From Kastovskya adunca ATA6-11-RM4 (GTDB taxonomy: Bacteria > Cyanobacteriota > Cyanobacteriia > Cyanobacteriales > Coleofasciculaceae): a stretch of 64,000 nucleotides of DNA. Below are positions 4,381-51,497 of the stretch, one piece after another. Position numbers and translations under genes: made by a program. The DNA is taken from contig JAHHHJ010000009.1 of the NCBI GenBank assembly GCA_019359445.1, forward strand, positions 124,001-188,000. The letters run 5' to 3'. Under the pieces are notes generated by a model. The model did no database searches and was not told where the DNA came from. It saw only the letters and a program-made list of their open reading frames with translations. The first letter of the stretch is position 1; every line of letters begins with the position of its first letter.

Positions 4381-4878
4381 TTAAATTTCTACTTTGACTA
4401 CTTTCTCTAAACGATTACTTTCACCTCTTGCCTCTTTGAGTAAGTCATTCCAATCGTCTGGAGGATGACCACTTTCAAGCATTTTCTTAAAAACTCGATA
4501 AGCGTCTGTGTTACTGTCATAGGCTCGCTTAGAGTTCTCATCGTTAACCCAGGCAAAAACAATTATTTTGCTTTCTTGATGATATCGAAAAAACAGTCGG
4601 TACTGCTGAAAAAATTTAGCTCTAAACCAGTGCTTGTAATCATCACCAAGCGTAGTACCTTGGCGATAATTACTACGTGTTGGATCTTGAGAAATATCAT
4701 CAAATGCCAGCTTTGCTATGGCAGCTAGACGCTTTGTGGCATTTTTTTTCTTGTAGTCTTTAGGATACTTCTGACGCAAATGTTCGACCTGCGTCAGAAG
4801 TTCTTCAAACTGGTCAAGGAAGAGAGGATGAGCAAATATATTCCACTCATTAATCACTAGCGGCTGATTTACAGACAA
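4381..4878 (-). CDS. yhaV: Type II toxin, YhaV family
   Basis: A 165-residue protein resembling the YhaV ribonuclease toxins (RelE-like fold), which cleave mRNA when not bound by the PrlF antitoxin. Recognisable segments are NEWNIFAHPLFLDQ at the N-terminus, the central FRAKFFQQYRLFFRYH and IIVFAWVNDE, and the C-terminal VFKKMLESGHPPDDW. The start is TTG; no in-frame ATG precedes the conserved N-terminus, and GAGG lies about 11 bases upstream inside the antitoxin's last codons. The gene begins two bases after the antitoxin stop, so the pair is an operon with antitoxin first, as is usual for prlF-yhaV. Full length, no damage seen. Confidence 0.88.
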   Translation of the reverse strand: MSVNQPLVINEWNIFAHPLFLDQFEELLTQVEHLRQKYPKDYKKKNATKRLAAIAKLAFDDISQDPTRSNYRQGTTLGDDYKHWFRAKFFQQYRLFFRYHQESKIIVFAWVNDENSKRAYDSNTDAYRVFKKMLESGHPPDDWNDLLKEARGESNRLEKVVKVEI

Positions 4879-4880
4879 GC

Positions 4881-5213
4881 TTATTCATCCTCGTCAGACA
4901 ATGGTGCATCAAGATCAAAATCAACCTCAGCAACCAAGGACTGAACACGGCTTACTAAATCAGAGCTAATCGCTTGTAAGTGCTGAGGATTCTTTTCGAT
5001 ATCTCGTGCAATAAAATTCAGAAACTTCCCAAGTATAGGATCGCTCTCGGTCTTGTCAGCGCGAGAAATCACTACATTGCCGTCAGCCTGGATAGCGTAG
5101 CAGATTTTATCACCCTTATTTAAGCCAAGAACCTTCCGAACGGTCTCAGGGACTGTAGTCTGGTAACGAGCGGTAAGAGTAGATTCTGAGCAGGGGGTTG
5201 GTCTTACAACCAT
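4881..5213 (-). CDS. prlF: Antitoxin of YhaV system, PrlF/AbrB-like
   Basis: An antitoxin of about 110 residues. The N-terminal part (ESTLTARYQTTVPETVRKVL then GLNKGDKICYAI) is a swapped-hairpin AbrB-type DNA-binding domain. The acidic C-terminal tail (VAEVDFDLDAPLSDEDE) would wrap the toxin. A longer reading frame opens further upstream, but the ATG at 5213 is preceded by TTAGAGGTCGCT (GAGG at a good distance), and the extra N-terminal residues look unlike the family. Type II antitoxins of this kind usually repress their own promoter together with the toxin. It is followed immediately by yhaV. Confidence 0.85.
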   Translation of the reverse strand: MVVRPTPCSESTLTARYQTTVPETVRKVLGLNKGDKICYAIQADGNVVISRADKTESDPILGKFLNFIARDIEKNPQHLQAISSDLVSRVQSLVAEVDFDLDAPLSDEDE

Positions 5214-5298
5214 AGCGACCTCTAAACCTATCAATATAAACATTACTAAGGTAATGCAAATGCATTGTCTTATCAAGAGTGACAGGCTTGGGTTTTGA

Positions 5299-5459: not shown

Positions 5460-6314
5460 TCAAGCAAAAACCACGGTGCGATTGTCATAAATCAACACTT
5501 GATGGCGCAGATGCAGGCGCACGGCTCTTGCTAAGACGAAGCGTTCCAAGTCCTTACCTTTGCGAATCAAATCGGCGATGCTGTCGCGGTGGCTGACTCG
5601 CACCACATCCTGCTCAATAATCGGCCCGGCATCCAGTTCTGGGGTGACGTAGTGAGCCGTTGCGCCAATGATTTTGACGCCTCGTTCGTGGGCTTTGTGA
5701 TAGGGCTTGGCACCCGCAAAGGCAGGGAGAAAGGAGTGGTGAATGTTGATAATTTGGGGAAACTGGGAGATAAAGTCGGTACTAAGTACTTGCATATACT
5801 TAGCGAGAATCACCAAGTCAATGTTGTACTGACGCAGTAGTTCTAGTTGTTTGGCTTCTTGTTCGGCTTTGTTTTCTTTGGTGATGGGAAGGTGGTAAAA
5901 ATCCGCCCCAAATTGTTCGCCAACGGCTTTTAAATCTGTGTGGTTGCTGATAATCAACGGAATCTCTGCGGAAAATTCCTTCGCCTGCTGTCGCCAAATT
6001 AAGTCAAACAAGCAATGATCTTGCCGACTTACCCAGATCGCTATGCGGGGGATTTTGTCGGAGAAGTGGAGCCGCCACTCGGCTTGTAGGGGTTGCGCGA
6101 TCGCATTAAATGCGGGCCCAATCAATTCGCGGGGCAAGTTAAACCCGCCTAACTGCCACTCGATCCGGGTGAGAAATAGCCCGCTAGCAAAGTCTGTGTG
6201 TTGGTCAGCATGGATAATATTGCCGCCATTTGAGTAGATAAAGTTGGCAAACTTTGCGACTAGTCCCCGTTGATCGGGGCAGGAAATTAACAGTGTCGCA
6301 GTGGGGACTGTCAT
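5460..6314 (-). CDS. purU: Formyltetrahydrofolate deformylase
   Basis: A 284-residue cytoplasmic enzyme that hydrolyses 10-formyltetrahydrofolate to tetrahydrofolate and formate, balancing one-carbon units and supplying formate for purine synthesis. The N-terminal ACT domain (about residues 6-80) begins TATLLISCPDQRGLVAKFAN. The C-terminal formyltransferase fold contains NIHHSFLPAFAGAKPY and ATAHYVTPELDAGPIIEQD, which carry the catalytic Asn, His and Asp of the family. Length is normal for PurU. The start is ATG at 6314. It stands alone: upstream on the same strand is the SWIM-protein gene, 200 bases away; downstream is the attC-like hairpin. Confidence 0.95.
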   Translation of the reverse strand: MTVPTATLLISCPDQRGLVAKFANFIYSNGGNIIHADQHTDFASGLFLTRIEWQLGGFNLPRELIGPAFNAIAQPLQAEWRLHFSDKIPRIAIWVSRQDHCLFDLIWRQQAKEFSAEIPLIISNHTDLKAVGEQFGADFYHLPITKENKAEQEAKQLELLRQYNIDLVILAKYMQVLSTDFISQFPQIINIHHSFLPAFAGAKPYHKAHERGVKIIGATAHYVTPELDAGPIIEQDVVRVSHRDSIADLIRKGKDLERFVLARAVRLHLRHQVLIYDNRTVVFA

Positions 6315-6515
6315 GGCTCAACGGTAAGTTTCTGGACTCATAGCCTACCAAATAAGCAGCGCAGTTTCAGCTTGACAGATAGGCTCGCCTCATCTGTAGC
6401 CGCCTGTCAAGAGGCTTCGGCATCCACTGAACCGCTAATTTTCACAACAAAGCGACCTAGACCCCGCCACCTACAACGGTAAACCGCATCCCCGGATTGA
6501 GCAGTTGGGACTTGA

Positions 6516-7340
6516 CTACTCTTCCCGATTCAACGCCACCATCATGGCTTGCTGACTGATAGACTGATAAACCTCATTCAGGTACTGCCTAATCGCCTGA
6601 GAATTAGAGGACGCTAACGGTATCGTCCCCAAAACATCAAGCACCGAACTGCTATCAGGTGGCGGCGCAATCACCACTAGCGAAGATTCTAGCGGCTCGT
6701 CGTACTTCCAAAACTGCTCAATATTGAGGGGTGTTGCCGATTGTGTAGGTTCAGGTGCAGACTCTTTCGAGGCTTTCCCGTTGCTTTCCGGTTGTTCTTG
6801 AGTGTCACCCGTGCTTCGCAGTTGGCGCAACTCGTCGAGAATTTGCCCCTTAGTCCGTCCCCGCAACTGGAATAATACAAACGGGTCTTCACTAAAGCGA
6901 TCGCCTAACTCATAATAAACCGCCGCAATATGTTTGCAGGGGTTTTGTGGGTCAGGGCAACTACACCGCGATCGCACATCAGACAGGGTAAAGGGAAATA
7001 AACTCAACCCATTAGAAGTAAATACTTCTTCAATATTTTGGGGCATTTCTCCTGCCAACAACTGAGCTGAGTAAATCGCTTGCTCAGACATAGTTTTGAC
7101 AACAAAATCCCAATCTTCATCCGTAAAAGGAGCGATCGAAATAGAAAGTTTGTAAGGTTCTGGCGCAGTTCCTTGTACTTTTGCCAAAACCTCTGCACCT
7201 TGAAACTCAATACTGAGAATATTCCCTTGTTTAGCGTAAATACGCCCCCGTTCTAAGCGCTTTTTAAATCGGTAAGAATTGAGCAAGTCAATCCACCGCT
7301 GCACCCACCATTCTTGGCTTTCAATTTCGTAGTTTGTCAT
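6516..7340 (-). CDS. SWIM zinc-finger protein, partner of SNF2 helicase
   Basis: A 274-residue protein with one SWIM motif, RSRCSCPDPQNPCKHIAAVY, giving the CxC...CxH zinc ligands around residue 130. The N-terminal part starts NYEIESQEWWVQRWIDLLNS and includes a RIYAKQGNILSIEF stretch common in SWIM proteins next to SNF2 helicases. The C-terminal third is low-complexity and proline/serine-rich, ending in a short helical region. SWIM domains bind DNA or protein. The gene lies 199 bases downstream of the SNF2 helicase on the same strand, an arrangement repeated across many bacteria. Its biochemical role is not known; accessory DNA binding for the helicase is an inference. Confidence 0.85.
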   Translation of the reverse strand: MTNYEIESQEWWVQRWIDLLNSYRFKKRLERGRIYAKQGNILSIEFQGAEVLAKVQGTAPEPYKLSISIAPFTDEDWDFVVKTMSEQAIYSAQLLAGEMPQNIEEVFTSNGLSLFPFTLSDVRSRCSCPDPQNPCKHIAAVYYELGDRFSEDPFVLFQLRGRTKGQILDELRQLRSTGDTQEQPESNGKASKESAPEPTQSATPLNIEQFWKYDEPLESSLVVIAPPPDSSSVLDVLGTIPLASSNSQAIRQYLNEVYQSISQQAMMVALNREE

Positions 7341-7362
7341 TGTTTTTTAGTCCTGAGTCCTG

Positions 7363-7540
7363 AGTAGGGAGATGAGGGGCTGGGAATTTTAATAAACCAC
7401 AGAGGCACAGAGGGCGCGGAGGAGGGAAAGAAGAGAAGGAGAGGGAGATGAGGAACCCCTGGAAAAGCGATAATCCCTAACCTTTTACCTTTAACCCCTC
7501 ATACTTCATCCTTCATCCTTCATACTTCATCCTTTCTTCC
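7363..7540. repeat. Composite repeat array with CACAGAGG-type element
   Basis: Between the SWIM gene and the helicase: TCCTGAG heptamers (7363-7375), a dispersed-repeat core AATAAACCACAGAGGCACAG (from 7391), purine-rich GGAGAGGGAGATGAGG, then TTCATAC/TTCATCC heptamers (7500-7532). The same series of blocks occurs at 40903-41187. Confidence 0.8.
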
Positions 7541-10500
7541 TAATCTTCTTCATCAATCACTGCACTGCGGTCGAGTAAGAGTAAGTTTCGCAACTGATTG
7601 GTATCCATTTGCGTCAGCCACTGTTCGCCTGCATCTACGGTTTGTTCGGCTAGTTGTTTCTTGCTTTCGATAATGTCGTTGATGCGTTCTTCTAGAGTGC
7701 CTGTACAGACAAATTTGTGTACCTGCACATTGCGGGTTTGACCAATCCGAAAGGCACGATCTGTTGCTTGATTTTCCACGGCTGGGTTCCACCAACGATC
7801 GACGTGGAAAACATGGTTTGCCCGTGTTAGGTTCAGTCCTGTTCCCCCTGCTTTTAGGGAGAGAATTAAGATGCGCGGACTTTGCGGATCATTCTGGAAG
7901 CGGTCGATCATCTCCTCCCGTTGCGATTTGCGAGTTGCGCCGTATAAAAAGAGCACGTCCTCGCCTAAACGCTTTTCTAGATGGGGTTGCAGCAGTTTGC
8001 CCCACTCCGCAAATTGGGTAAAGATTAAGGCATGATCGTCTTGGGCGATCGCCTCTTCTAACATCTCCTCCAATCGCTGCAATTTACCCGATTGGCGACT
8101 ATCGAGCATGTCTTTCTCGCCTTTGGCTTTGGGCTTTTTAGCATTCAACAGGGCAGGATGGTTGCAAACTTGCTTTAAGCGCAGCAACAAAGTCAAAATC
8201 AGACCGTGACGCTGGATGCCTTCGGCTTCTTCAATCTTTGTCAGCGAATCATCCACTAGCTGTTGATACAGTGCCGCTTGTTCGGCGGCGAGTCCGCAGA
8301 AGACGGTCATCTCCTGCTTTTCTGGCAAATCTTGGATAATGTCTTTGTCTGTTTTTAGGCGACGGAGGATGAAGGGTTGCACAAGCGATCGCAAAGTCTG
8401 CAACGAATCCGTATCGCCATACTTCTCAATTGGCATCGCAAACCGCCGCTGGAAGAATTGCCGATTGCCCAAATATCCCGGATTGAGAAAGTCCAAAATC
8501 GACCACAATTCTGACAAGCGATTTTCTATCGGCGTCCCTGTCAAAGCAATCCGAAACCCTGCTTGGAGTTGCCGCACCGCCTGGGACTGCTTGGCACTAG
8601 GGTTTTTGATATTCTGTGCCTCATCCAGTACCATCCCTGCCCAAGAAACCCCCTCTAGGCTTTTAATATCTCGATACACCAGCGGGTAACTAGTAATGAC
8701 CAGATGCTTATCCTTAACAGCTTTGGCAAATTCCTTCCCCTTGGGGCGCTTGTCTCCGTGGTGGACAATCGTCTTCAAAGAGGGGCCAAATTTCTTAACT
8801 TCTCGTTCCCAGTTTCCTAATACAGAAGTCGGGCAAACGAGCAACGTTGACCCCTCCAAAGTCTCTTGCTCCTTTTGATGGAGCAAAAAGGCGATTAGCT
8901 GAATGGTATTGTGACAAAGGATATTATTGGCGACAAAGTTGTGATGTTCGTTCACTTCCAAGTCATACACCCATCCCTCATACTCGATCTCCTCAATCTC
9001 CTGAATTGGGCAGTAGAAGACTTCTTGATCAAGCAGGCACTGTAAGTTTTGTCGTGTTACATTTAGCTGCTGTTTGTCGAGCTGGGCATAGCGCTCTAAA
9101 GTCTGAAGCGTCCACTTAGAAGGCTTTTGCAGGCGATACTCTTGTTCGGCTACACCGCTCAAGACGCCCTCAACACCAACTAGCACTTTTTCTAGACTGA
9201 GGCGAGAAAACTGCTGAGAACCATTAATATAGACGGTGTTGTGCATCCCAAAATGGCGGATTGGCAACTTAGTTGTCTCGACGGCTTGGGCAACTATTTC
9301 AGAGGCGGGGATGCCTTCTACATTGGTGTTACTTAGCCGTTGGCAGATCGCTTCTAGTTTCTGCTGTTTGGCAGGAATGCCAAATCCAATTTTTTGCAGA
9401 AAGCGTCTGGCACTATTTCCGCCGAGGGTGCCGATGTAGTAGGTGCGGAGGATACCACTGCCATTTGTTGCCCGTTTTTGTTGTGGTGAAATTCGCAGCC
9501 AAATTCCGAAGCGTCGCAGGAGTACCGAAAGTTGTTGAATCAGCAGCGGTGAGGCGGTGCTAATTTCCACAGTCCGCATCCTGGAGTTGACTGAGCCTTC
9601 AGCGTCAAAGTAGTTCCGCAAGAAGATACGCAGGCTTTCCAGATTTGCCTGCATGATCAAAGGCGGAAAGGCTTTATCGCGCGATCGCTTACCCCAGTTG
9701 TACCCTTTCGCTTCCAAAAAGCGCCGATAAGCTTGGCTATTGACTCGCAAGGCGGCAACTCGGTTAGGAAAGTTACACAGACGCGGTTGATTAATGTTGA
9801 GGTCATAGCGCTGAGCAATTCGCACTAAAGTCTGGTGCAAGTCTTCTAAGCAGTTTGTGTCTTTCTGGTATATCTTCAACGCACCTACAGACTGCTCGTT
9901 TCCCTCGGCAATTTGCCAAGCCAGAAACTTGACCAAATCGGGATCTTCTGGTTTTCCTTCCCAGAGCATTTTGCCAGGGACACAGACGCGATCGCCCACT
10001 TTTAAGTTATTTGTCCAACCGTTAGTTGTTAGCAGCTTGTGACGCTGGGTAATGGTAATCGTGCTACCGTCTTGCAGGGTTACTTTTCGCAACTTCTCGC
10101 AGACTTGCTGTCGATACAGCCGCCGGATGGGAGCTTGCACAATTTTTCCAGTTTCTTCATCAATGGAATTGACCAGTAATTGCTCAGTCGGCGTTGTCCA
10201 GAACCCTTCGCCATCAAACTCTTGTTCGTTGGCATGAGTCTCCCAAATTTCTGCCGCCGTCTGTACTACACCGTTGACAGGAATCAGGGAATCTGCACTC
10301 AGGCATTTTCCGAGTCCCATATCGTCCGCGAGGCAAGCTCCCAAGCCCCAACGTTCCAGGAAGGTGAGCCAACTGACGCCTCGTGCTTGGTAAGGTCTTA
10401 ACGTACCGTGGAAGCTTTCCGGGGCTTCAATCGGCTCAATCGAGCGATTACCTGTCAAATTGGTAATCAGCTCCTGCAATGCCCCAGAGGCTTCAAACTT

Positions 10501-32008: not shown

Positions 32009-32186
32009 TAATTTTCTTTTACGGGGTTTGGATAGGGCGATCGCACCCTTAATCAGGTCTTGCCGTCGTTCCAAGCCTCTTTTCGATTGACATAGTGAAA
32101 GCTTATAAAGTTAAGTCAATGTATAATAAATTTTGAGTAATCAAAGGCTGAAATAGCTTGCACAGAGCCTACCAACATAGCACCTG

Positions 32187-32663
32187 ATGCCTGCATACAC
32201 ACTTCCTCAATGTCCAGAACTATTATTGAGAGTAGCAGGCTCGGATTCCGATAATGCACGATATAAGGCTTTGAAGAATGTTGTTGAACTTGTTAACGCA
32301 GGCTATCTAAAAATTCAACTGCCTGAAGGCTTTAGTACATGGCAACTCATTGAAATTAAAGAGCAAGATTTAATGGCTGAAGATGAAAATAAAATCATTG
32401 AAGCTGTAAAAGTTCTTAATAAGCTTTCTGTTTCAAGGCAGAGAATGCAGGAACTCAATGAACAAGCTTTGCAAGCTCGAAGACATATAGATGTTCTCTT
32501 CACCGAGAAAATTTTAGCGAAAGAAGATTTTAAGAATATTGAGGAAGGTCTTAAGATTATCAGGGATTTTGCTCAAGTTAGTTTGCGATATAAGGAAGCA
32601 TCAACTAAAGCAGAAGAAGCTCGTTCTATACTTGACGAAGCATTGAATATATATGAAGAGTAA
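32187..32663 (+). CDS. Predicted helical/coiled-coil protein of an AT-rich two-gene unit
   Basis: 158 residues, no recognised family. After a short start (MPAYTLPQCPELLLRVAGSD) the protein is mostly charged helix, with heptad-like stretches around 75-155 (VSRQRMQELNEQALQARRHI; KEASTKAEEARSILDEALNI). No signal peptide or membrane segment. It is 20 bases upstream of the 660-residue gene on the same strand and shares its AT-rich base use and absence of HIP1 sites, so the two were probably acquired together and are co-transcribed. A structural or regulatory partner for the larger protein is inference. Confidence 0.7.
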   Translation: MPAYTLPQCPELLLRVAGSDSDNARYKALKNVVELVNAGYLKIQLPEGFSTWQLIEIKEQDLMAEDENKIIEAVKVLNKLSVSRQRMQELNEQALQARRHIDVLFTEKILAKEDFKNIEEGLKIIRDFAQVSLRYKEASTKAEEARSILDEALNIYEE

Positions 32664-32683
32664 TTTTTCAAAAAAAGAGTAGA

Positions 32684-34666
32684 ATGAAGCTAAAATATTT
32701 TTCTCAATCTTATAACATTCCAACAGCAGAGGATGAGGACTGGTTCGATCCCCAAATGTCTTCGGATACACTTTTATTTATAGATCCTTTCCTTGTTTTT
32801 GAAAGTGATATTCCTTTATTCAGCAATGCCAAAGAAAAGTTTTTTACTTTCTTTAACTCAGCTTTTGAATTAGCTCATGAGGCTGTGAACTCACGTACAG
32901 CCTATAACAAATTAAAAGCAGTACTTAAGTTTCCAGAGGTGAAAGAATTATGCTTAGGGTTCTCTGAGCGAGGAACTGCTGGATCGGGTTCTGGAGGTGG
33001 TTACTCTAAAGGTTTTGCTGATGCATTATTGAAACTGGCTTCTGCTGGTTATACAGGGCTAGATCACTTTGAAGAAATAGAAATTTTTACATTAGGTATT
33101 GGTAAGGATAGAATTAGCGATGCTACAGCAAATATTATTAAGCCTGAATTAATTGAATATACTCAACAAGTATGTAATATATTCAAGATTCCTACGATAT
33201 CTCATGTAATTGAAAATGCTGGATTTGACTATGAATACAAGCGTTGGGACAAAGGTCGAGTTTATACCCTACCAGGAAATCCTTTTTTCAATAGAGGAGA
33301 AAGGGCTGTAATCCTTGTACCCAAAGCTTTTCTTTGTGCAACTCATGCAATTGGAGCTGATGGCTTCAAGAATTATGTCCAAGACAACAAGAATGAAGAA
33401 CTAAGAGCAGATTTAAACTACGAAATTGAAAAAGAATTTAAAAAAATTAATAAGTCACATATTGTTGATTTAGCAGAAAGACATCCGAAGTGGGTTCGCG
33501 AGTATGTAGATTATGTTGAGAATGATGCAGATATAAAACCGTACGATCTTGAAGTTGACCGTGAGAACTTATATAGAAATGAAAAAAGAGCTTATTCTTT
33601 TATTATTTCTCATCCAATTGAAGTATCTGTTTCAAACAATGAAGAATTCGTTCAGTGGATCGAACTTTTAATTGATAGATTTAGATTGTTTATTGAAGAG
33701 CAAGATGGAAATAAGCTTCTATGGAATATAGTCAAAAAACCATGTAGCCAGATAGTTGACTGTCAACCTTGTAAGGAGTCTACTGCTCGAAGCGTTTTAG
33801 TTGAGATAATTTTAGGTTATTGCTCTATCAACAAAGTCAATATATCTAAAGAATCAGATTTAGGCAAAAAAATTGTTGAATTTAGCTTTTCGTCAGGATA
33901 CAAAAACCAAGCTTTGATTGAGTTAAAGCTTGCTAAAAATAGCAAAAACATTACTCAGGATGATTTGGGCAAGCTTCCAGCACATATAGAATCATATAAA
34001 ACCAATTATCGTTATTTTCTAGTTATTCCGTATACAAGAAAAGAACTTGAGTGCATAAACAAAGCTCTTACTAAAATTGAAGCTATAAGCTTTGGAGAAC
34101 TCGCGTTTAAATTTTTTGTTGTTGATGCGACTTTAGATCAACCAAATATTTCTTTTGCACCCTCAGAATCTAAGCAAATGTCAAATGATCGTCTTCGTGC
34201 AGTTGAAAAGAATCTAGAACTTCTTCGCAAGCAGATAGAAGGTAGGGAAGAGGCTAAAAGTATAGCTCCCTTCGAGGAAAAAACTCGTATCGAATTAGGA
34301 ATTCAGAAGCTACGTGAGGAGATGCGTCCTTTTGAGGAAGAATACTGGCGGCTTCTAGCGGTACGCTCAACCCAGGTGGAAATTGCTGAACCAGAAGCAG
34401 AACTCGTAGTTGCAGAACTCGTAGAGCAAGTGGGGCAACTGCAAAATAGCAGCCAGTATCCTAATGGAGTACTTCAGCTTTTGCAGAAGATTTACATTGA
34501 AGTGAGTAAACCGGGTACACCTGCTGCCGCAAAGCTAAAGGGCGCAGTGTCAATGTTTCCACCATTTGTGAGCTTAGGCTACGAAGCAGAAATTGACATT
34601 GAAAGCTTTTTTCGTACCCATATGCCGACCTTTACTCAGTGGTACAAGAATTTAGCGAAAAAGTGA
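32684..34666 (+). CDS. Large protein with putative PD-(D/E)XK nuclease core, possible defence gene
   Basis: 660 residues. The N-terminus (KLKYFSQSYNIPTAEDEDWF, then DTLLFIDPFLVFES) and a GTAGSGSGGGYSKGFADALL segment belong to a type I associate, from memory, with unnamed proteins near defence loci. Around 390-450, FSFSSGYKNQALIELKLAKN followed by LPAHIESYKTNYRYFLVIPY fits the beta-hairpin E-x-K core of PD-(D/E)XK nucleases, with Glu and Lys in IELKL. A coiled coil (about 500-565) precedes a C-terminal module (KLKGAVSMFPPFVSLGYEAE...FFRTHMPTFTQWYKNL) similar to tails on other cyanobacterial accessory proteins. The gene is AT-rich and lacks GCGATCGC, unlike its surroundings. It is the second gene of a two-gene unit. 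The nuclease call is inference. Confidence 0.75.
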   Translation: MKLKYFSQSYNIPTAEDEDWFDPQMSSDTLLFIDPFLVFESDIPLFSNAKEKFFTFFNSAFELAHEAVNSRTAYNKLKAVLKFPEVKELCLGFSERGTAGSGSGGGYSKGFADALLKLASAGYTGLDHFEEIEIFTLGIGKDRISDATANIIKPELIEYTQQVCNIFKIPTISHVIENAGFDYEYKRWDKGRVYTLPGNPFFNRGERAVILVPKAFLCATHAIGADGFKNYVQDNKNEELRADLNYEIEKEFKKINKSHIVDLAERHPKWVREYVDYVENDADIKPYDLEVDRENLYRNEKRAYSFIISHPIEVSVSNNEEFVQWIELLIDRFRLFIEEQDGNKLLWNIVKKPCSQIVDCQPCKESTARSVLVEIILGYCSINKVNISKESDLGKKIVEFSFSSGYKNQALIELKLAKNSKNITQDDLGKLPAHIESYKTNYRYFLVIPYTRKELECINKALTKIEAISFGELAFKFFVVDATLDQPNISFAPSESKQMSNDRLRAVEKNLELLRKQIEGREEAKSIAPFEEKTRIELGIQKLREEMRPFEEEYWRLLAVRSTQVEIAEPEAELVVAELVEQVGQLQNSSQYPNGVLQLLQKIYIEVSKPGTPAAAKLKGAVSMFPPFVSLGYEAEIDIESFFRTHMPTFTQWYKNLAKK

Positions 34667-34687: not shown

Positions 34688-34896
34688 TCACAGCCTTATC
34701 CCCAAAAAGAAGTGAGGCAAACGCCCTAAAAATTCCTGTTGCCATTCCAGAGTTCGAGTTGGGTTGTTGCTTGGCAGCGCACTATCGAACATACAGCCAT
34801 CTCTTCAAGGGAGATAGAATGCAAGCGATCGCGCACCGACACCGAGCGACCATTCAAATACATCACACAAACATTCGTGTCGAGCAGGTAACGCAT
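34688..34896 (-). pseudogene. vapC: vapC toxin remnant (PIN domain, frameshifted)
   Basis: Starting at ATG 34896, the frame reads MRYLLDTNVCVMYLNGRSVS and continues to EEMAVCSIV, the N-terminal strand and first acidic residue of a PIN-domain ribonuclease. It then runs out of frame and stops at 34726. In another frame the sequence resumes as SNNPTRTLEWQQEFLGRLPH, which looks like the next part of the same protein, so a small deletion with frameshift has occurred after SIV. The rest of the domain, including the other acidic residues, is missing. It begins three bases after the vapB stop. Confidence 0.8.
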
Positions 34897-34899
34897 TCT

Positions 34900-35142
34900 C
34901 TAGTCAAACGCTCCAGCAAGGTCATCATCAAGGCTCTCTGAAATTCCTGAATCATCAAGGACAATAGGATCATCAGCACAGATGCCATAGAACCGTTCTA
35001 GCGATCGCCCCGTTACTTTTGGTGATGAAACAGGCTGATAAATGACCATCACTTCCACCTCTCGTTCTGTTAGTCCAACAGGAATATCGAGATGGAGAAT
35101 GCCATCTTGCCCAACACGCTGCCGTACCTTAATACTTTCCAT
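34900..35142 (-). CDS. vapB: VapB-type antitoxin
   Basis: 80 residues: an N-terminal beta segment, MESIKVRQRVGQDGILHLDI followed by PVGLTEREVEVMVIYQP, typical of short antitoxins paired with VapC toxins in cyanobacteria, then a linker and an acidic C-terminus (DDSGISESLDDDLAGAFD) for toxin binding. The frame is intact although the toxin gene behind it is decayed. A 36-residue reading frame ends 17 bases upstream. It may still regulate its own promoter or cross-act on other VapC proteins. Confidence 0.8.
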   Translation of the reverse strand: MESIKVRQRVGQDGILHLDIPVGLTEREVEVMVIYQPVSSPKVTGRSLERFYGICADDPIVLDDSGISESLDDDLAGAFD

Positions 35143-36475: not shown

Positions 36476-38272
36476 ATGGTGAAGCGCTCCTCCCGCCGCA
36501 TCCCTAAAACTGCAAGTGTTGTCTTAACATCCCTGATAGTGGTCTTTGCTCTATCAATCAGCCAAGCTCTCATGCCATCTCCGCCGCTACTGCTGACCGA
36601 ACCCTTTCTCCAACTCCCAACTGAGACATCTGTAAAAGTTGTTTGGTTTACCGAGTTTGCAGGTTTTCGCCATCTTGTCACCTACGGTTCAAAACTGAAC
36701 CAAAAAGCGATCGCCACAACAACCCAACTCACCCGCACCCAAGAAGACCAAAACTCCAAAGTCGGAGAACAAACAGAAACAGGGCAGATTTACCAACAAC
36801 CCATAAAGCGCCACATCTGGCGTCATGAAGCTGAGGTGACAGGTTTAATACCAGGAGATCGGATTTCCTATCGCGTCACTAGCCTTCGGGAAGATAACCA
36901 GAGTGTGAATAGCGAAGTCTTCACCCTGGCTGCTACTCCACCACCCGGAACGCCGCTAAAAATCCTCCTCACCTCCGATTACCAACTGATGCCCATGACA
37001 GCGGCGAATCTTCAGAAGGTTGTGGAAACAGTCGGTCAGGTGGATGCTGTTTTTCATGCCGGAGATTTAGTTAATGTACCCGATCGCGCCTCTGAGTGGT
37101 TTGATGACAATCGCGGTGGGGCGTTCTTTCCCGTCATTCAAGGACGTGCCAATTACGAACTGAAAAAAAATGGCGTCAAGACTCTTTACAAAGGCGGTGA
37201 GTTAATTCAACACGCTCCTTTATTTCCAACCATCGGCAATCATGAAGTAATGGGGCGAGTTTCCAGTTCAAATAGTCTCAGCGACCAGTTGAATGATGCC
37301 TATCCTCGTCATGCTGCTGAGGCACTTTACACAAAAAATGCCCAGCAATTGAACCCTACGAACGACGCCACAGTGCGTGAAGCGTGGCTGAAAGATAACT
37401 CCTTCAACACTGATACCTACAACGAAATTTTTACTCTGCCGCAGAAGGACCAGGGGAATGAGAATTACTATGCTGTGACCTTTGGGGATGTGCGCTTGGT
37501 TGTGCTGTATGTCACCAATATCTGGCGGAATCCTAGCCTTGAGGCTAATGCTAGAGGCAGATACAAAGAGTCAGAGCAAGACCTGAATAACCCCGCACAG
37601 TGGGGCTACGGACAGCACATCTTTGAACCCATCGCTAAAGGTAGCCCTCAGTACACTTGGCTGGAACAGGAACTCAATAGCCCAGAGTTTCAGCAGGCAA
37701 AGTACAAAATCGTCATGCTGCACCATCCGCCCCATACCCTAGGTGATAACATCGTGCCTGCCTACACCGATCCGGTGCAGAAAATTGAGCGGGACGAAGA
37801 TGGAGAAATTAGAGCGATTCGTTACGAGTACCCGCAGGACAAAGATTATATTTCTCAGGATTTGCTACCCCTGCTGGAATCGGCACAGGTGCAGTTGGTA
37901 TTTTTTGGACACTCTCATCTCTGGAATCGCTTCTTGAGTCCGAAGGGAATGCACTTTTTGGAAACCTCTAATGTGGGTAACAGTTACGGTGCTTTTTTGG
38001 GCGATAAAGAGCGTCCTGTACCAACAGGCTACAGCGAGAGATACGTGGCAACAGGCGATCCAAATGGGCTAGAGGCGATCGCGCCCAGTATCGCTCCCCT
38101 AGTCGGAGAAGATAACCAGCCGCTACCCTATATCGCCAGTAATGACATTACCGCCTTCAGTATTTTGGATACGGGGGCGGGAACGGTGACTAGCTACTAT
38201 TTCGATACGCAAAAACCCAAATCAGAGGTGGTGAAGTTTGATCAGTTTAAGCTGACGACACCGCTTGAGTAG
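36476..38272 (+). CDS. Secreted metallophosphoesterase, purple-acid-phosphatase-like
   Basis: 598 residues. An N-terminal hydrophobic segment (about 13-32) acts as signal peptide or anchor. A fibronectin-like domain precedes the catalytic fold (PFLQLPTETSVKVVWFTEFA). The metal-binding motifs appear in order: ILLTSDYQLMP (an altered D-x-H site reading SDYQ), VFHAGDLVN (GD), PTIGNHEVMG (GNHE), MLHHPPHTLG (H) and VFFGHSHLWNR (GHxH). The first motif replaces the usual histidine with Gln, which could alter one metal site. It likely releases phosphate from organic esters in the periplasm; the substrate is unknown. A good terminator follows 112 bases after the stop. Confidence 0.88.
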   Translation: MVKRSSRRIPKTASVVLTSLIVVFALSISQALMPSPPLLLTEPFLQLPTETSVKVVWFTEFAGFRHLVTYGSKLNQKAIATTTQLTRTQEDQNSKVGEQTETGQIYQQPIKRHIWRHEAEVTGLIPGDRISYRVTSLREDNQSVNSEVFTLAATPPPGTPLKILLTSDYQLMPMTAANLQKVVETVGQVDAVFHAGDLVNVPDRASEWFDDNRGGAFFPVIQGRANYELKKNGVKTLYKGGELIQHAPLFPTIGNHEVMGRVSSSNSLSDQLNDAYPRHAAEALYTKNAQQLNPTNDATVREAWLKDNSFNTDTYNEIFTLPQKDQGNENYYAVTFGDVRLVVLYVTNIWRNPSLEANARGRYKESEQDLNNPAQWGYGQHIFEPIAKGSPQYTWLEQELNSPEFQQAKYKIVMLHHPPHTLGDNIVPAYTDPVQKIERDEDGEIRAIRYEYPQDKDYISQDLLPLLESAQVQLVFFGHSHLWNRFLSPKGMHFLETSNVGNSYGAFLGDKERPVPTGYSERYVATGDPNGLEAIAPSIAPLVGEDNQPLPYIASNDITAFSILDTGAGTVTSYYFDTQKPKSEVVKFDQFKLTTPLE

Positions 38273-50546: not shown

Positions 50547-51497
50547 TTAAAGCCTATTTCTCCACGTTTCTAGAGCTTCAGATACCAGATCGTCTATATA
50601 ACCGCCAACTTGTTTGCCTCCTTCATATAAGAAATACAATGTCGTGCGTCCTATCTCCATTTTGCCAATTCCTTTTGGAACATGACCGAATGCCCAATAA
50701 ACATTCCACTCAGTATCAACATTACCTACTTGCATCCTACCAACAGCTTTTGTCTTACGCTTAGGAATGGGTAACCAGAGGAATAGTATAAGCTTTTTCG
50801 ACTTTCTTTCAAAAACTAACTCTGCACATAACTTTGTCTTTCCTCTTCCATACTTTATACTCTTAGACTCCGTTATTTCTTGCATAAGGTTATCAAAGGC
50901 AAGTATCTGCTGTCGAATTTTGAGAATTCCTTCTTCCTCGCTAACTGTACACGAACCTAACCAATCTAGGAGTAATCTAGGAGGAGTTAGTACACCTTCA
51001 TTAATATTATTAAAGTCTATCTCACGATAGGGAATTTCTATTGAATAAACTTGTTCTGTATCTATATTATTTAATTGCAAATAAAAATTATCCTTCTTAA
51101 AAACTCCTAAATGTAAAAAATCTAATTCAAGCTTGTTGTATTTACGATCTATCAAATTATGCTTATGAAAACTTGGTGCAACTGCCACTAGACGAACAGG
51201 TTTTTCATAATCCAATTGTTCCTTGAAGGGTTTTCCCTCTAGCAAGTTGTCATAATAACGAGTTAGTTGCTGAACAAGATAGCGATCTTCAGCATTTTTC
51301 AGCTCAATTACAACTAATTTCTGATTGTTATCAATTGCTAAAATGTCGCAGACTTCGCCTTTGACAGAGTATTGTCGCTTTAGGGGAACCAACCCTAGTA
51401 GCTGCTTCAAATTAGCCCAGACGAAATCTTCCAAAGCTGCTTCGCTTGAAAATTCCCATCCCGACCCTGTCTTCCTTAAGGCTGCACCACTCAGCAT
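50547..51497 (-). CDS. NucS-like/DUF91-type PD-(D/E)XK endonuclease
   Basis: 316 residues. The N-terminal region (EDFVWANLKQLLGLVPLKRQ, then YSVKGEVCDILAID) leads into VVIELKNAEDRYLVQQLTRY, which gives the D...E-x-K catalytic core of RecB-like nucleases; the Asp is in CDILAID. The middle is AT-rich, with Asn/Lys/Ile-rich sequence. The C-terminal part (VGNVDTEWNVYWAFGHVPKG to SEALETWRNRL) looks like a separate DUF5655-type beta domain, which is an inference. It has no HIP1 sites and stands alone, suggesting transfer. Roles could be repair or defence against foreign DNA. Confidence 0.82.
   Translation of the reverse strand: MLSGAALRKTGSGWEFSSEAALEDFVWANLKQLLGLVPLKRQYSVKGEVCDILAIDNNQKLVVIELKNAEDRYLVQQLTRYYDNLLEGKPFKEQLDYEKPVRLVAVAPSFHKHNLIDRKYNKLELDFLHLGVFKKDNFYLQLNNIDTEQVYSIEIPYREIDFNNINEGVLTPPRLLLDWLGSCTVSEEEGILKIRQQILAFDNLMQEITESKSIKYGRGKTKLCAELVFERKSKKLILFLWLPIPKRKTKAVGRMQVGNVDTEWNVYWAFGHVPKGIGKMEIGRTTLYFLYEGGKQVGGYIDDLVSEALETWRNRL

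Follow-up and report, generated by a model that had tools for sequence, protein, structure and literature searches.

A candidate conflict module in Kastovskya adunca: a PDC-M36A protein with an eroded nuclease-like domain and an adaptor-like C terminus

Introduction

What does a protein of a defense-associated family do once the signature of its nuclease domain has eroded and an additional module has been joined to its C terminus? The question is raised by an AT-rich two-gene unit of the cyanobacterium Kastovskya adunca ATA6-11-RM4, which lies in a 64,000-nucleotide stretch of contig JAHHHJ010000009.1 (positions 124,001 to 188,000; here called the window, in which all positions are counted unless another region is named). 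The unit consists of a gene for a 158-residue protein (32187 to 32663) and, 20 bases further along the same plus strand, a gene for a 660-residue protein (32684 to 34666). A first-pass annotation, made from the letters alone, had read the pair as a candidate undescribed defense system with a putative E-x-K nuclease core, and the open reading frame (ORF) list bears out its account of spacing and length. Our comparisons suggest a different emphasis. Two things stand out as unusual: family members with adaptor-like tails appear to have lost the nuclease signature more than once, and one such member is paired with a conserved protein's diverged copy.

Results

The 660-residue protein is a three-part member of a family already present in PADLOC as PDC-M36A, so that the label "undescribed" has to be dropped for the main family. 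The PDC-M36A profile matches residues 8 to 241 with an E value of 5.6e-26, covering profile positions 10 to 235 of 457 and leaving the C-terminal half of the profile unmatched; the same profile matches all 54 of 54 aligned family members at E ≤ 0.001. A scan of genome contigs gave 273 relatives, the best 80 of which were fetched. Most loci were found through N-terminal patterns, a route that favors conservation of the N-terminal domain and in which the nuclease part was not a selection criterion. Typical relatives have about 475 to 500 residues and no tail. The window protein shares their N-terminal acidic columns and differs from them in its eroded nuclease half and an added module of 165 residues.

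The surroundings of these relatives agree with the defense setting first proposed. We compared two genes on each side of 20 homologs, taken from the 80 fetched loci, with controls drawn from the same contigs at distances of 50 kb or more. At E ≤ 1e-10, the 80 neighbors matched 288 PADLOC families and the 80 controls matched 28, the counts being of families and not of proteins. Among the matches listed, neighbor families include type I and IIG restriction enzymes, PglX, DrmMI, GajA, and Old, and control families include RtcR-type regulators, GlgB, SIR2, dGTPase, and a TAP-like protein, with one control protein being a strong SIR2 match (4.4e-120). The difference identifies the PDC-M36A-type family, by its genomic company, as defense associated.

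The idea of a conserved two-gene unit was not supported. No constant partner gene was found across 91 homologous loci, where the largest neighbor cluster spans 6 loci and is presumably HsdS-like; we take the name PDC-M36A to stand for "multi-gene," which would imply a constant partner. The nearest named matches are on Calothrix, Crinalium, and Leptolyngbya plasmids. Plasmid records matched number 20, 19 through the core (the protein up to its C-terminal module) and 1 through the C-terminal module only; 11 viral contigs encode relatives of the core, and none of 50,697 phage records matched. The Calothrix homolog (region L031, 6068 to 10523) adjoins a divergently oriented upstream pPIWI_RE_Y/REase gene. 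Five further loci (L015, L038, and L198 to L200) encode the same N-terminal motifs with a different C-terminal part, which in L015 and L038 contains a VFELKN stretch.

The N-terminal domain (residues 1 to 240; 32684 to 33403, plus strand) is the best-kept part of the protein. A column was counted as conserved if 90% or more of a set of 86 members agreed in it; this set contains neither the window protein nor the Calothrix one, nor L015, L036, L037, and L038. By this measure, 37 of 42 N-terminal columns are retained in the window protein and likewise 37 of 42 in the Calothrix protein, and all 4 of 4 columns of the helical linker region in the structure model (residues 241 to 344; 33404 to 33715, plus strand) are retained as well. 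Residues D28, D34, E85, E130, D142, S145, and D146 are present in the window and Calothrix proteins and in two further relatives discussed below, L218 and L216. In the window, D34 is encoded at 32783 to 32785 and the G-x-D-x-x-SD motif (residues 140 to 146; 33101 to 33121) is intact; His50 is replaced by Lys. Plasmid relatives from Acinetobacter and Bacillus, of 304 and 317 residues, match only residues 3 to 278 and 3 to 263, respectively. No informative match in the Protein Data Bank (PDB) for the fold of this domain was among those listed, which mostly span residues 283 to 468 of the family representative, and a viral library gave none at E ≤ 0.001. We infer an enzyme or a ligand-binding domain.

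The second part (residues 345 to 485; 33716 to 34138, plus strand) has the predicted topology of a PD-(D/E)XK nuclease, as the first-pass annotation had anticipated. A model of the window protein built from the family alignment has a mean predicted local distance difference test score (pLDDT) of 78.9, falling below 50 at residues 389 to 398, and that of the representative, an intact Mesonia relative, reaches 86.2; the PD-(D/E)XK order of elements is predicted in both. The C-terminal half of the representative is closest to BstYI (Z 10.3, 3.4 Å, 138 aligned residues), followed by BamHI (Z 10.1), OkrAI (8.9), Can2 (8.3), McrBC (8.3), and EcoRV (7.8). First comparisons with the whole 660-residue model were dominated by its long C-terminal helices. 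A sequence search of solved structures returned nothing significant, with best E values of 5.7 and 0.66.

It is within this fold that the window protein departs from its family. The IELKL stretch noted at first is present and corresponds to E413-x-K415 of the family alignment (33920 to 33928), but the core it was thought to represent is not intact: E365, E413, and K415 are kept as in BstYI, BamHI, McrBC, and Can2, whereas Asp399 has become Glu (33878 to 33880), Gln430 has become Lys, and the GRGP motif and Y434 are lost. Among the 103 members other than the window and Calothrix proteins (the 86-member set plus 17 more), Asp399 is present in 101, the exceptions being L216 (Glu) and L218 (Asn), and Glu413, Lys415, and Gln430 are each present in all 103. 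The Calothrix protein has Asn399, Lys413, and Asn430. Of 23 conserved nuclease columns, the window protein keeps 11 and the Calothrix protein 7, compared to 18 to 22 in ten other relatives; the lowest retention among the 86 other members is 72%. The changes at Asp399, Gln430, and GRGP make nuclease activity of the window protein doubtful.

The erosion seems to be old. The window protein groups with that of Calothrix in a single clade, with a Shimodaira-Hasegawa-like approximate likelihood-ratio test (SH-aLRT) value of 100 in trees built from 35 of 92 rows, and this clade takes up 13.2% of the tree length for the nuclease domain versus 6.4% for the N-terminal domain, in which the window tip branch is short (0.15). 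Because both proteins have R395K, G396K, and P397I, erosion probably predates their split. Both ORFs are still open.

The loss of Asp399 coincides with gain of a tail. We considered 105 members, which are 116 alignment rows minus 11 that are without this nuclease type or are cut off (L015, L036 to L038, L161, L197 to L201, and L205). Only 3 of the 105 have C-terminal extensions of more than 100 residues: beyond position 486, the window protein has 174 residues, the Calothrix protein 197, and L218 116, the next longest having 18. Asp399 is absent in all three (Glu, Asn, and Asn, respectively) and in 1 of the 102 others (L216). The probability of this coincidence by chance is 2e-5 if three events are counted and 6e-4 if they are counted as two.

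The third extended protein, L218, is a PDC-M36A relative of 598 residues from a genome of the same order (7143 to 8939 of its region). It is distant, sharing 28.7% identity with the window protein over residues 21 to 283 only, and in sequence it resembles members of the other main subfamily. Like the window protein, it combines intact N-terminal acidic motifs, a replaced Asp399, and an adaptor-like C-terminal extension. It differs in that its tail, of about 110 residues, has an EAD9-like hairpin (E 3.6e-8 and probability 95% by hhalign, and a blastp match of E 6e-5 to an ORF with EAD9), in having no homolog of the 158-residue protein in its locus, and in the presence of EAD9 elsewhere in its genome, in two more copies with E values of 3.7e-24 and 2.9e-14. 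We take one of these copies to lie inside a trypsin-like ORF and the other beside a P-loop ATPase-like ORF (L239 and L241). Since L218 appears to come from another subfamily and has an EAD9-like tail, loss of Asp399 together with gain of a tail probably arose twice. The Calothrix tail is a coiled coil and differs from the window module. That tail (FGTNHGKQTGNEHN) and the product of the next gene (FGENRGTQIGIQHN) have a common glycine-spaced motif, which to us recalls bacterial amyloid signaling motifs.

The C-terminal module of the window protein (residues 496 to 660; 34169 to 34663, plus strand) consists of a helical hairpin and a helical tail. The long helical C terminus described at first as an accessory tail is indeed predicted, but its relation to immune-receptor genes elsewhere had been missed. 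The module matches separate ORFs of about 160 to 240 residues in genomes of the same phylum, the best at 54 to 61% identity, and the closest of these, on a Crinalium plasmid (L032), stands directly before an annotated NACHT gene. The loci considered were 20 regions holding 21 of the 28 places found, plus L032. Ten downstream partner genes were scanned, with NB-ARC in 6, NACHT in 1, only TPR in 2, and HEAT in 1; partners in L131, L124, and L137 were scanned in addition, those in L125, L130, L132, L133, and L135 being left out. Further module loci have VMAP-C or Band_7 partners, L121 and L127 have no intact partner, and a STAND NTPase gene lies within two genes of the module in 8 of 21 loci. In L137, the homolog (6293 to 7725) directly precedes a VMAP-C protein, a link to vWA-MoxR ternary systems. 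For the hairpin half of the window module, hhalign gave a tentative alignment to EAD9 (probability 61%, E 8e-5, 52 columns, only 4 EAD9 sequences), the control comparisons giving E values of 0.29 and 0.79.

Base composition supports the earlier view of the unit as AT-rich and foreign looking. GC content at third codon positions (GC3) is 0.252 in the 158-residue gene and 0.21 to 0.26 over codons 1 to 485 of the 660-residue gene, compared to a mean of 0.478 (standard deviation 0.061, minimum 0.312) in the 38 other window genes. Within the larger gene, GC3 rises from 117/490 in codons 1 to 490 to 64/165 in the C-terminal module (Fisher p 2.9e-4), and this step at the junction makes a mosaic origin likely, though not proven. 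The first-pass annotation had also pointed to the absence of GCGATCGC, which we take to be the HIP1 repeat of cyanobacteria. The absence is real, with 98 copies in the window and none between the site ending at 32044 and that starting at 34825, but it is weak evidence alone, as 1.36 gaps of at least 2,788 bases are expected under random site placement; we therefore rejected it as proof of foreign DNA and let GC3 carry the point. Eight regions from related genomes (L206 to L213) share the gene at 36476, and because no other window gene near the island matched in them, they gave no demonstration of an insertion. The surroundings of the unit contain few short repeats, none of them remarkable, and promoter- and terminator-like sites were as frequent there as in shuffled sequence.

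The 158-residue protein had been described only as helical. Its comparison with other genomes identifies it as the second, rapidly diverged copy of a protein that is conserved in the phylum. The family has a strong match (E ≤ 2.2e-29) in 65 of 386 genomes of the phylum, with one copy in 64 and two only here; at most nine candidates were scored per genome, so that additional weak copies may have escaped notice. The ortholog in the same genome (159 residues; G000:C16:201091-201558) is homologous over its full length. Identity between the 158-residue copy and 12 orthologs is 39 to 48%, compared to 59 to 86% among the orthologs themselves, and its terminal branch is 6.21 versus a median of 0.14. 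GC3 is 0.484 in the ortholog of the same genome, 0.252 in the copy, and 0.30 to 0.33 in orthologs of three other genomes; given the difference from its own ortholog, the copy probably came from AT-rich DNA and did not arise by a local duplication of recent date. Neither NCBIfam (best E 0.00038) nor Pfam (best 0.0018) offers a confident match for the family, no plasmid match or viral relative was found for it, and hhalign found the 158-residue protein unrelated to the C-terminal module. The 159-residue ortholog in L165 (6089 to 6562, minus strand) likewise belongs to no named family.

Other features of the window lie outside the unit. The decayed vapBC reported downstream corresponds to a short, apparently truncated PIN/VapC-like ORF (34726 to 34896, minus strand; start MRYLLDTNVCVMYLNG, stop after 56 codons) beside an antitoxin-like ORF. 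The antitoxin-like ORF, of 80 residues, precedes the VapC-like one and has no Pfam match at E ≤ 0.1. Together, the two (34726 to 35142, minus strand) adjoin the 3' end of the 660-residue gene and are a possible scar of island arrival. Elsewhere, an AT-rich gene for 316 residues (50547 to 51497, minus strand; GC3 0.312) encodes a VVIELKN E-x-K stretch in a product that we liken to NucS/RecB-type nucleases, and two adjoining genes of low GC3 (0.331 and 0.402) at 4381 to 5276 on the minus strand look to us like a YhaV/PrlF toxin-antitoxin system.

Discussion

We consider it somewhat more likely than not that the unit is a conflict module, gained by horizontal transfer and directed against invaders, which acts through its N-terminal domain and adaptor and not as a plain nuclease. 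The ancestral family protein would have been a two-domain nuclease effector of defense islands, in which cutting was weakened, changed, or lost on the window, Calothrix, and L218 branches. The protein would then work through its intact N-terminal domain, which may act or sense, with the pseudonuclease perhaps binding DNA or serving as a scaffold. The C-terminal module may tether the protein to an immune-receptor or signaling complex, or it may drive oligomerization. The 158-residue copy could be a co-acquired partner, either a regulator or a bait for invader action on the normal protein.

The study of Kaur et al. (2020, PMC7159879) presents EADs as coupling adaptors that act by like-with-like contact, with further background in PMC8195603. 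The window module, taken with its separate homologs, is like EADs as the former depicts them: it is small and all helical, stands alone or at a terminus, and has STAND NTPases or, at one locus, VMAP-C as neighbors. PMC7159879 also raises the possibility that enzyme domains without activity serve as decoys in systems of this type, so that the decoy idea is not itself new and a decoy-type reading is natural but not unique. In the literature searched, which did not extend to preprints, PDC-M36 is not named and no description of a fusion between the core and the C-terminal module was found.

Several observations weigh against this preferred reading. On the nuclease side, Foldseek gave no match at E ≤ 0.001 for either the window or the representative model, and PF08011, at E ≤ 1, matches no more than 11 of the 54 members, the window protein not being one of them. 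E365, E413, and K415 remain in the window protein and E413, K415, and Q430 in L218, and since L216 has Glu399 without an extension, and keeps Gln430, Glu at this position may be tolerated. On the adaptor side, the link of the window module to EAD9 is weak. The module has no match to Pfam PF19962 (EAD9) at E ≤ 1 and differs from EAD9 by an extra helical part at its C terminus; PF19962 weakly matches 4 of 19 module homologs (best E 0.0038), and the Pfam EAD9 model does not report the L218 tail at E ≤ 0.001. The Kastovskya genome contains neither a second copy of the module nor EAD9, and no like-with-like partner was seen there; nine other genomes, chosen for having the module, contain one to three copies each, and the single copy speaks against such a partner in this genome. 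The fusion itself occurs in no other genome among the 386, and among the ORFs of the loci compared, 128 contain the core and 43 the module, both occurring together only in copies of the window gene. As for the mosaic, the same split of 27 control genes gives a mean GC3 difference of +0.009 (standard deviation 0.058) and a maximum of 0.175, which exceeds the observed 0.149.

One alternative, in line with the first-pass annotation, is a working PD-(D/E)XK nuclease effector in which Glu399 stands in for Asp399 and which degrades DNA upon infection. The fold is predicted for the window protein itself, E365, E413, and K415 remain, its relatives structurally match restriction enzymes, and Glu399 recurs in L216, where the other residues are kept. 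We regard this alternative as improbable, however, given the constancy of Asp399 (101/103) and Gln430 (103/103) in the rest of the family, the additional loss of GRGP and Y434, and a sister protein in Calothrix that lacks Asp399 and Glu413 altogether. Nor is it probable, and in our estimate it is still less so, that the gene is a degenerating relic, imported with an island, fitted with a C-terminal module, and released from selection. Restriction of the fusion to one genome, the eroding nuclease domain, the apparently truncated VapC-like ORF next to it, and the very long branch of the 158-residue gene would all suit decay, but neither reading frame is broken along the 2.5 kb, the N-terminal domain has changed little and has a short tip branch, and the erosion, being common to Calothrix, must be old; in L218, moreover, it is again accompanied by an extension.

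The role of the small gene separates the remaining alternatives. The least credible of them, which we hold to be very unlikely, is a toxin-antitoxin or addiction pair in which the 158-residue protein neutralizes the larger one: the order of a small gene 20 bases before a larger one and the presence of homologs on small plasmids are as such pairs would have them, but no small partner is conserved in the 91 homologous loci and the 158-residue protein belongs to a family conserved in the phylum. A more serious contender, though still unlikely, is that the 158-residue gene is an unrelated paralog which merely lies upstream, the module being the 660-residue gene alone. The pairing is known from one genome, the gene upstream of the Calothrix homolog is a divergent pPIWI_RE gene instead, and five extra related loci, including L218, have no homolog of the 158-residue protein; against this stand the close spacing on one strand and a GC3 that is low like that of the core and unlike that of its own ortholog. 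A guard-and-decoy unit goes furthest, with the 158-residue protein as a bait for invader proteins directed at the normal copy, watched by a receptor made of a disarmed nuclease, an intact enzyme-like N-terminal domain, and an NLR-type adaptor, in a family repeatedly disarmed when wired to adaptors; we advance this only as a speculative extension of the conflict-module reading and think it improbable in full.

At the strength that these comparisons allow, the locus points to two kinds of bacterial immunity having traded components, with a candidate protein of restriction type on one side and an NLR-like adaptor on the other. The nuclease signature appears to have been lost upon gain of an adaptor, a pattern seen in two lineages. 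In this widespread defense-associated family, the N-terminal PDC-M36A domain, with its conserved acidic residues, stands out as the part that probably does the work. A conflict gene paired with a diverged copy of a host protein would, in addition, make a decoy or guard model testable in bacteria.

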